From: Altibacter sp.
Lineage (GTDB): Bacteria; Bacteroidota; Bacteroidia; Flavobacteriales; Flavobacteriaceae
DNA length: 64,000 nucleotides
Assembly (NCBI RefSeq): GCF_019913785.1
Contig: NZ_JAIOHK010000011.1
Span: 1 to 64,000 of the forward strand
Direction: 5' to 3'
The notes under the pieces were generated by a model, which was not told where the DNA came from, did no database searches, and was given only the letters and a program-made list of their open reading frames with translations. Positions 47,792 to 49,988 of this stretch are shown one piece after another. The position numbers were made by a program, and so were the translations under genes. Numbering within the stretch: position 1 is the stretch's first letter; each line of letters starts with the position of its first letter.

Positions 47792-48475
47792 ATGAGTGTT
47801 AGGATTCCTAGAAGTGCTTTTTCTTTTTTAAACAATCTCAAAGCAAACAATCACCGCGATTGGATGCAGGAACATAAAAAAGAATATCAGGCGAATGAAA
47901 AAATGTTGAAAACATTTTATGCTGCGGTAGCGGAGGGACTCAACAAGACCGATAAGATTTCAAAAACAAAGGTGTTTCGTATCAATCGGGATATTCGGTT
48001 TAGCAAGGATAAGACTCCATACAATGTTCATAGGAGTGTTAGTTTTAGCAGAGCAGGTGAGGACCGTCGCGGGGGCTATTACCTACGCCTAGAACCGGGA
48101 AATTCTTTGATGGCAGGTGGTTTTTTTGACCCCAATCCGGCTGATTTGTTGCGAATCCGTAAGGAATTTGAAATGGACGCCACAATGATTCGTAAGATTT
48201 TAAGCGCAAAAGCGTTTGAGGCTGCTTTTGGAGGATTTGTACAAGAGCATAGGGTAAAGACCGCTCCGAAAGGCTTCAGTAAGGACGATCCCAATATCGA
48301 TCTAATTGGGTTAAAGAATTATTTTGTAGTGCATAAATTTACCGATAATGAGGTGTTTTCCGAAGACTTTAAAGAAAAGCTTTTACAGCACTACGAGCTG
48401 CTGCGACCCTACTTTAACTATATGAGTGAGGTTTTGACAACCGATCTCAATGGTGTTTCATTGTTGAAGAAATAA
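47792..48475 (+). CDS. DUF2461 domain-containing protein
   Basis: A 227-residue soluble protein. FLNNLKANNHRDWMQEHKKEYQ, RINRDIRFSKDKTPYNVH and GYYLRLEPGNSLMAGGFFDP are the family hallmarks. DUF2461 proteins are widespread in bacteria and fungi; their function is not established. The start at 47792 gives the usual length. Confidence 0.92.
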   Translation: MSVRIPRSAFSFLNNLKANNHRDWMQEHKKEYQANEKMLKTFYAAVAEGLNKTDKISKTKVFRINRDIRFSKDKTPYNVHRSVSFSRAGEDRRGGYYLRLEPGNSLMAGGFFDPNPADLLRIRKEFEMDATMIRKILSAKAFEAAFGGFVQEHRVKTAPKGFSKDDPNIDLIGLKNYFVVHKFTDNEVFSEDFKEKLLQHYELLRPYFNYMSEVLTTDLNGVSLLKK

Positions 48476-48502
48476 TCGAAATAGTACATTTTTGTTGTAA
48501 TT

Positions 48503-48578
48503 ATAAGTATTTTAGCTTATAATTGCACTATATAAGTCCATAGGCTTATTAAAATTATAAATAAGGATACAGGCTTAT
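48503..48578 (+). promoter_or_regulatory. Three palindromic sites with a 29-base period
   Basis: ATAAG-N8-CTTAT occurs three times: 48503-48520 (arms extend to nine bases), 48532-48549 and 48561-48578 (six-base arms). The starts are exactly 29 bases apart. The last ends 13 bases before the ATG of the SatD-like gene. Sites 2 and 3 share GGCTTATTAAA. The layout is that of an operator array for the downstream pair. Confidence 0.7.
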
Positions 48579-48591
48579 TAAACTGAAAGCG

Positions 48592-49260
48592 ATGAAAAAC
48601 CTAACCGTAATTAGTGGCGATTTTATCAATTCTTCGCAATACGAGACGAATTTGTTAAAATCAATTCTGAAGCATTTAAAGGCCGAATTTACTATGATCG
48701 AAAATCAACTTTCAGCCGAAGGGGTACATTTTTCCATATATCGCGGAGATAGTTTTCAAGGCGTCCTAGAGAACCCCGTCAGGGCCTTGTCTGTAGCACT
48801 TCAAATTAAGGCATTCGTGAATAAAACGGTTTCAAAAGCCGTCCAGACAAAATCGAAAACGCCCATTGCAGACATTCGTATTTCCATTGGAATAGGGGAG
48901 GCAGACTACGACAAGACCTCCATCACCGAAAGCAACGGCGCAGCGTTTCACTTTTCGGGGAGAACATTGGATAAAATGAAGTTGGAAGGTTCCAAAATGG
49001 CACTTACAACAGCCAATAAAGAAATAAATGCCGAGTTTTTAGTGAGCTTTGCTTTTTTGGATGCCATTACCAACCGCTGGTCGACAGCTTCTGCCGAGGT
49101 GGTGTATTACCTGCTAAAAGGGTATACCGAACAACAGATTGCCAACGAAATTGGACGTAGTCAAGCGGCCATCAATCTTCGTAAAAAGGCGGCAGGTTGG
49201 GAGGAAATTCAGCTGTTATTAAAACGCTATGAGCAAGTAGCCAAAAAATATTTTGTATGA
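48592..49260 (+). CDS. SatD-like protein with C-terminal helix-turn-helix
   Basis: A 222-residue protein. The N-terminus NLTVISGDFINSSQ matches the SatD family (ISGDxxNS); the middle (IADIRISIGIGEADYDKTSI) resembles a nucleotide-cyclase-like fold, as in this family. The end has a probable helix-turn-helix (YYLLKGYTEQQIANEIGRSQAAINLRKK), so it may bind the palindromes at its own promoter. It overlaps the DUF3307 gene by four bases; the pairing is recurrent as I recall. Function is unknown. Confidence 0.8.
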   Translation: MKNLTVISGDFINSSQYETNLLKSILKHLKAEFTMIENQLSAEGVHFSIYRGDSFQGVLENPVRALSVALQIKAFVNKTVSKAVQTKSKTPIADIRISIGIGEADYDKTSITESNGAAFHFSGRTLDKMKLEGSKMALTTANKEINAEFLVSFAFLDAITNRWSTASAEVVYYLLKGYTEQQIANEIGRSQAAINLRKKAAGWEEIQLLLKRYEQVAKKYFV

Positions 49261-49988
49261 CTTCCGAAATCATTATCGCCTTACAATTACTCTTAGCACA
49301 CGTTGTGACCGATTTTCTGTTACAGTCCAAAGCCTGGATCAAACAGAAGCGAAAGAAAAAGACAAGATCTCCCTTTTTGTATATACACGCGTTTACCGCG
49401 GGCTTATTGACCTACCTGTTCCTTCAAGACTGGAGTGGCTGGCAAATACCTGTCATTATTAGTGTTTCGCACTTTTTCATCGATCTTTGGAAACTATACC
49501 AGCCCAAAAATTCCTTGGTATATTTTTTATGGGATCAGCTATTTCACCTATTGGTGCTGCTTGGGGCCTGGCTATACCTTACCGACGCGTTTGCTTCGGT
49601 AGTACCGTTTATGGCTTCGTTTATCACTTCAGAAATGACATTGGTGTTATTAACGGGTTATTTGGTTGTTATTTTTCCAATTGGATTCATTATTGGAATG
49701 GCAACCCAACAGTGGCAGGATGAAATTGCTAAAGACGGCGGTTCCACCAGCTTAAAAAAGGCGGGGCGCTATATCGGAATTTTTGAACGAATTTTGGTAC
49801 TCACTTTTATCCTTACGAATAACTTCTCTGCGATCGGGTTTTTAATCGCAGCCAAATCTATTTTGCGATTTAGTGATAAAAGTAAAAGCGGCGCCAGAAA
49901 GCAAACCGAATACGTACTTATTGGGACGCTTATGAGCTTTGCACTTACTATTGTGATTGGAATATTAATGCGCGTACTCGTATTCTAA
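49257..49988 (+). CDS. DUF3307 membrane protein
   Basis: A 243-residue protein with six or so hydrophobic segments. LLLAHVVTDFLLQSKAW is the DUF3307 signature, followed by HAFTAGLLTYL and ISVSHFFIDLWKLY; the His and Asp in these helices suggest a metal or proton role. It is translationally coupled to the SatD-like protein. Its 3' end overlaps the convergent gene by 24 bases. Confidence 0.85.
   Translation: MTSEIIIALQLLLAHVVTDFLLQSKAWIKQKRKKKTRSPFLYIHAFTAGLLTYLFLQDWSGWQIPVIISVSHFFIDLWKLYQPKNSLVYFLWDQLFHLLVLLGAWLYLTDAFASVVPFMASFITSEMTLVLLTGYLVVIFPIGFIIGMATQQWQDEIAKDGGSTSLKKAGRYIGIFERILVLTFILTNNFSAIGFLIAAKSILRFSDKSKSGARKQTEYVLIGTLMSFALTIVIGILMRVLVF

Follow-up and report, generated by a model that had tools for sequence, protein, structure and literature searches.

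A phased palindrome array overlaps the promoter of a satD-membrane protein gene pair and is very probably read by SatD itself

The locus studied here lies in a window of 64,000 nucleotides (the whole stretch of DNA that was analysed) from Altibacter sp., and it consists of satD, a gene for a membrane partner whose start overlaps the end of satD, and three palindromes of the form ATAAG-N8-CTTAT in front of the pair, which we refer to as operators (Table 1). The positions of the three palindromes, their common arm spacing and their 29-base step were reproduced exactly as given in a preliminary description of this DNA, and so were the nine-base arms that it claimed for the first of them (AATTATAAG/CTTATAATT). 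The end of operator 3 is separated from the start codon of satD by 13 bases.

Table 1 Features of the satD locus, in positions of the window
Feature	Position	Strand	Remarks
TTG, -33-like promoter element (inferred)	48495..48497	+	20-base spacer to TATAATTG
Operator 1, ATAAG-N8-CTTAT	48503..48520	.	nine-base arms 48499-48524; kept in orthologues
TATAATTG, -7-like element (inferred)	48518..48525	+	one mismatch to TAnnTTTG; overlaps end of operator 1
Operator 2, ATAAG-N8-CTTAT	48532..48549	.	five-base arms; kept in orthologues
Operator 3, ATAAG-N8-CTTAT	48561..48578	.	six-base arms; kept in orthologues
satD, 222 aa	48592..49260	+	predicted palm-fold domain, about residues 1-142; C-terminal helix-turn-helix, helices within 165-221
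Asp10 codon	48619..48621	+	first presumed metal-binding position of palm; Asp in 130/130 SatD and in Ma1120
Asp53 codon (RGDSF hairpin)	48748..48750	+	second presumed metal-binding position; 130/130 SatD; GDGF Asp in Ma1120
Predicted recognition helix, residues 191-200	49162..49191	+	from DSSP of the model; residues 193 and 196 co-vary with operator letters
Membrane partner, 243 aa	49257..49988	+	PF11750; 4-base overlap with end of satD
C-terminal partner domain, about residues 131-243	49647..49985	+	common to short partners without DUF3307

Single ATAAG-N8-CTTAT sites are not rarer than chance. An exact match is present five times in the whole genome (G000, 2,979,763 bases), compared with 11 occurrences of a backward control pattern, and within the 64-kb window seven matches were found when up to one mismatch was allowed, compared with 3.4 expected. 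Three of the five exact sites in G000 are the satD array and the remaining two (L004 and L005) both lie within reading frames; no dispersed exact site was found outside reading frames in this genome, the array aside. The signal therefore lies in the way the sites are grouped and phased, and by our own arithmetic from five sites in 2.98 Mb the chance of two further sites falling at fixed offsets from one site is of the order of 1e-11 to 1e-12. A wider regulon was also considered, using TATAAG-N8-CTTATA with two mismatches, and was rejected, because the 212 places found per strand, against 412 for the backward control, could not be separated from chance.

With the window SatD as the query, 116 of 199 Flavobacteriaceae genomes yielded a satD relative, and eight loci were added from a named genome collection; from these sources 98 loci were used for the study of arrays, 95 of them with distinct SatD proteins. 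The preliminary description had named a lack of similar palindromes before orthologues as a refuting result; this was not what we found, as orthologues in other genera have palindromes upstream in the same phase. In close orthologues the palindromes are identical and mostly follow a step of 29 bases, and in more distant orthologues they differ in sequence and keep a similar phase at a step of 28 or 29 bases, with half-sites such as TATTCC, TATCAC, TATCTG, TATCG, TATTAG, TATATG or TATAGG. The architecture of the array is constant and the arm letters vary by lineage (TAT followed by three variable bases). Because a caller with a free period chose false first sites at many loci, tests with a fixed 28/29 period and 200 dinucleotide shuffles per upstream region were used instead, and three palindromes at this period were significant at p ≤ 0.05 in 76 of the 95 distinct Flavobacteriaceae upstream regions and at p ≤ 0.01 in 58, leaving 19 of the 95 without a significant array. 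A control stretch further upstream was significant at none of the 95 loci, albeit with fewer shuffles (60 each) than in the main test.

Arrays of this kind were also found outside the family. In an extended set of 36 phylum-wide and plasmid loci, several of which are close relatives of one another, the fixed-width test gave 16/36 with two copies and 14/36 with three; when the widths were allowed to vary, p ≤ 0.05 was reached by 18/36 with three copies (control 4/36) and by 16/36 with two (control 1/36). Eight satD loci from other groups were tested individually. Vibrio lentus and Sphingomonas have three copies before satD (p 0.005 each), and the haloarchaea Halorientalis, Haloplanus and Natronosalvus have two (p 0.010, 0.005 and 0.005, with the three-copy test giving p 0.050, 0.060 and 0.338), while the arrays of Salinivibrio (L135), Pseudoalteromonas (L137) and Agrobacterium (L143) were not significant. 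Outside Bacteroidota, 28/29 was not always the top period, and at some loci another period scored equal or higher. Upstream of the haloarchaeal satD genes at L141, L142 and L144 the palindromes follow a 29-base step, and at L141 and L142 a second pair, noted by eye, seems to lie nearer the start codon.

The array overlaps a promoter of the Bacteroidota type. According to PMC9723704, TAnnTTTG is the -7 box of sigma-A in flavobacteria, and this motif begins two bases before the end of a site at 28 of 95 loci; among 27 other offsets, one (two bases further in) has 10 loci, six have 1-5 and the rest have none. When pairs of TTTG and TAnnTTTG with spacers of 10-32 bases were collected, the spacer was 20 in 26 of 35. 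In the window, the TTG and TATAATTG flank operator 1 with a spacer that is likewise 20; these elements are imperfect and are themselves inferred. Such a regular promoter (TTTG-N20-TAnnTTTG, a 28-base step, with the spacer at exactly 20 in most pairs) could in itself set the period of 28/29 without any contribution of SatD. However, haloarchaea, Vibrio and Sphingomonas, whose promoters differ from the Bacteroidota type, also show this period in front of satD, and some Flavobacteriaceae clades have a period of 29. The archaeal and proteobacterial arrays therefore lead us to reject the promoter as the sole cause of the period, and we regard this explanation as improbable.

The SatD family (PF16264) takes its name from the sat operon of Streptococcus mutans. 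The window SatD meets the gathering cut-off of this family only marginally (29.6 bits against 29), and 42 of 52 diverse SatD members match at E ≤ 0.1. The model of SatD, which was built with nine sequences (pLDDT 89.7), shows a beta-alpha-beta-beta-alpha-beta palm followed by the helix-turn-helix that the preliminary description had placed at the C-terminus; the predicted palm fold had been missed there. Foldseek with this model returned cyclases and GGDEF domains (66 matches at E ≤ 0.001, E about 1e-4), and VIA gave Z 9.7-11.0 over 116-166 residues among the 50 entries listed, which include Cas10/Cmr2 subunits and GTP cyclohydrolase III. A profile of 52 SatD N-terminal domains found the adenylyl cyclase Ma1120 first (E 0.005) and aligned D10 with an Asp and D53 with the Asp of its GDGF motif, while a search of solved structures with a single SatD sequence yielded one insignificant match (E 0.11). 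The fold predicted for residues 1 to about 142 is thus common to the palms of class III cyclases, GGDEF proteins and Cas10/mCpol, from which SatD differs by its fused helix-turn-helix. Our searches of the open-licence literature brought up no account of operators, DNA binding or a fold for SatD; the name SatD does occur in PMC10326533, PMC5786311 and PMC12005413.

Four residues, D10, S14, D53 and G116, are invariant in 130/130 aligned SatD proteins, an alignment that excludes one short fragment (L106). The counterparts of D10 and D53 presumably bind metal in cyclases, and a metal role of the two aspartates in SatD is inferred. The hairpin around D53 reads RGDSF in the window protein and LGDEF in members of the same family such as L104, L108, L111 and L118. 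Residues 120 and 124, the by-eye counterparts of the catalytic/transition-state Asn and Arg of cyclases, are variable across the aligned SatD proteins. Assignment of SatD to the class III nucleotidyl cyclases was considered, and the predicted fold and the two Asp residues agree with it, but the transition-state Asn/Arg pair does not; because this defining feature fails, we do not file SatD as a cyclase.

Evidence on which protein binds the array comes from co-variation between SatD and the operators, which could be called at 77 of the 95 loci after quality filtering. On a tree built on SatD residues 1-160, residues 196 and 193 show the strongest co-change with bases 4-6 of the half-site among all 222 columns of SatD (p 0.0012 each, uncorrected, a value that would not survive correction for 222 columns), and by normalised mutual information with the operator residue 196 ranks first and residue 193 fourth. 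Among near pairs, with an N-terminal identity of at least 55%, residue 196 leads the 188 columns and residue 193 comes next, and operator similarity is 0.85 if residue 196 is shared and 0.25 if it is different. Among distant pairs residue 196 is only 8th of 198 columns and residue 193 falls outside the first twelve, and the deep background therefore matters. Convergences were also seen, K196 occurring with TTCC in two clades and T193 plus E196 with TCG in two clades.

A rule leading from residues to operator was fixed in writing before the new genomes were seen. For residue 196 it assigns K to TCC, E with T or S at 193 to CG[TG], E with N193 to CTG, Q to [AT]A[GT], R to TAC or GT[AG], and a small residue with A193 to CA[CT], and there are two further rules; the Q class is easier to meet because four triplets are allowed. 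The rule fits 69 of its own 77 training loci, most poorly for K196 (11/16). For the hold-out, 75 loci were examined in genomes that had not been part of the first set. After the exclusion of 16 weak arrays and 6 loci without an applicable rule, the rule was correct at 50 of the 53 scorable loci (K 10/10, Q 23/24, E 11/13, small 5/5 and R 1/1), compared with a mean of 14.5 and a maximum of 26 after shuffling. It was also correct at 6/7 in a secondary set of eight loci, one of which was dropped. The nearest N-terminal relative shares the operator in only 30/53, and at the eight hold-out loci whose nearest relative belongs to another recognition class the operator tracks the residue in 7/8 and equals that of the relative in 0/8.

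The co-variation, the hold-out and the nearest-relative control argue strongly, albeit indirectly, that the array upstream of satD is read by SatD itself, and the palindromes very probably serve as landing sites for the protein encoded by the first gene. The proposal in the preliminary description that SatD is the binder is supported to this extent, while physical binding has not been shown. In the absence of binding data, and with a window SatD barely above its Pfam cut-off, one might still assume that some other regulator binds the array and controls the pair. It would then have to be explained why the operator letters track SatD residues at nearly all scorable hold-out loci and match the nearest relative at none of the discordant ones, and why the exact sites in G000 are confined to the satD promoter, bar the two in reading frames, and we hold this to be very improbable. 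The palindromes may also be thought to act at the RNA level, as hairpins or a leader riboswitch, because the leader RNA folds better than shuffles (z -3.2). However, any palindromic sequence is bound to fold, and in the predicted structure site 1 is paired with itself but sites 2 and 3 with one another; no Rfam match up to E 1 was found in 48300-48800, the arrays overlap promoter elements, and the partner in co-variation is the predicted DNA-recognition helix. A function as RNA is thus scarcely credible to us, and SatD remains the preferred reader of the array.

The two genes also belong together. A DUF3307-like protein is encoded directly downstream of satD at 94 of 95 loci, and at 128 of 131 an open reading frame of 80 codons or more begins near the end of satD. 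Among 199 genomes, both genes are present in 113, satD only in three (G057, which is 8% contaminated, G106, and G150, which is 86% complete) and DUF3307 only in one, where the match is weak and lies in a 120-codon frame; 113 of the 114 genomes bearing DUF3307 therefore also have satD. The two-gene unit put forward in the preliminary description is confirmed by this neighbourhood and co-occurrence. At L059, the satD locus of G106, operator-like palindromes are present and no partner was found downstream.

The partner in the window scores above the cut-off of PF11750 (DUF3307; 86.4 bits against 23), over residues 9-116 only, and no Pfam family lies above the cut-off for its C-terminal half. A literature search on DUF3307 brought up a single phage paper. 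Nineteen partners have a length of only 104-137 aa. A profile built from these short forms detects the C-terminal region in 104 of the 109 long partners, and it also matches 8/8 haloarchaeal, proteobacterial and Segatella partners. The N-terminal DUF3307 part is therefore optional, and, judged by these profile matches, the element shared by the partners is not DUF3307 but an unannotated C-terminal membrane domain of about 100 residues, which the preliminary description had missed. The model of the partner is poor (pLDDT 66.5, helices only) and too weak for an interpretation of its fold. On the Sphingomonas plasmid (L140, 289-1076) genes for a holin and for a glycosyl hydrolase 108 lie near satD and are possibly phage remains. 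On the Agrobacterium plasmid pAt (L143, 3322-3594) the partner is annotated with only 90 aa, seemingly without the start of the domain, and its start or frame may be wrong.

We consider it highly likely that SatD is an autoregulator that binds an array of two or three operators over its own promoter, most likely repressing it, with a palm that is most likely nucleotide-sensing. The C-terminal helix-turn-helix would bind each palindrome as a dimer, which is inferred, at operators spaced by 28 or 29 bp over the promoter of the gene pair, and residues 193 and 196 would read half-site bases 4-6 (TAT + NNN). Sites between or over the -33 and -7 elements are the usual place for repression, and because the array overlaps promoter elements we infer that repression, by the blocking of RNA polymerase by bound SatD, would be the likeliest outcome. 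Some sites in two- and three-site arrays appear to lie upstream of the putative -33 box (by eye, not counted), which would suit a SatD that binds the array but mainly activates, or merely fine-tunes, the promoter; given the sites between and over the two elements, we find this unlikely. As an autorepressor, SatD would most likely bind or turn over a nucleotide with its palm domain, which carries the two invariant aspartates at cyclase metal-binding positions, and this would set its DNA-binding state, so that a change in the inferred nucleotide signal would induce the two-gene operon. The preliminary description had inferred a self-regulating unit, of which the link between SatD and the array is now supported by co-variation, whereas the choice of repression over activation, like physical binding, has not been shown.

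Panoptes consists of mCpol and 2TMbeta, and Pycsar of PycC and a membrane effector. Both resemble the present pair in having two genes, one for a palm/cyclase-fold protein and one for a membrane protein, but SatD differs in having its own DNA-binding domain and an operator array. PADLOC, run on five proteins, returned only weak matches to PycC, for the window SatD (E 0.0026). Toxin-antitoxin operons are similar in that a small regulator precedes the partner gene, operators lie over the promoter and the partner rarely occurs without the regulator, as in the genome counts above; SatD differs from them by its enzyme-like fold, and toxicity of the partner has not been shown. An antitoxin-like guard role for SatD remains, by analogy, an open possibility. 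In Panoptes, the product of mCpol restrains a toxic membrane protein (PMC12657230). By extension, SatD may be a nucleotide-reading or -making palm-fold autorepressor that restrains a toxic membrane partner; the pair would then form a guard module with a range from Bacteroidota to haloarchaea, and losing the nucleotide signal would both release the partner and de-repress the operon. We think this conceivable, though on balance doubtful. In S. pyogenes, satD is reported from transposon sequencing to be essential although accessory, with no other accessory gene in the top essentiality quarter (PMC11323703), which is what one might expect if satD restrains something harmful.

With these results, a widespread and functionally unknown gene pair gains a testable mechanism. 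The combination of a palm/cyclase fold with a DNA-binding domain suggests that SatD may be a direct nucleotide-to-transcription sensor, and the results could also bear on the question why satD, although an accessory gene, is reported to be essential in S. pyogenes (PMC11323703). If the guard role were true, the system would be comparable to Panoptes, but with transcriptional control residing in the palm protein. For the family, SatD would represent regulators whose operator letters shift between lineages while the architecture stays fixed, and for which a simple residue-to-base rule is already predictive.
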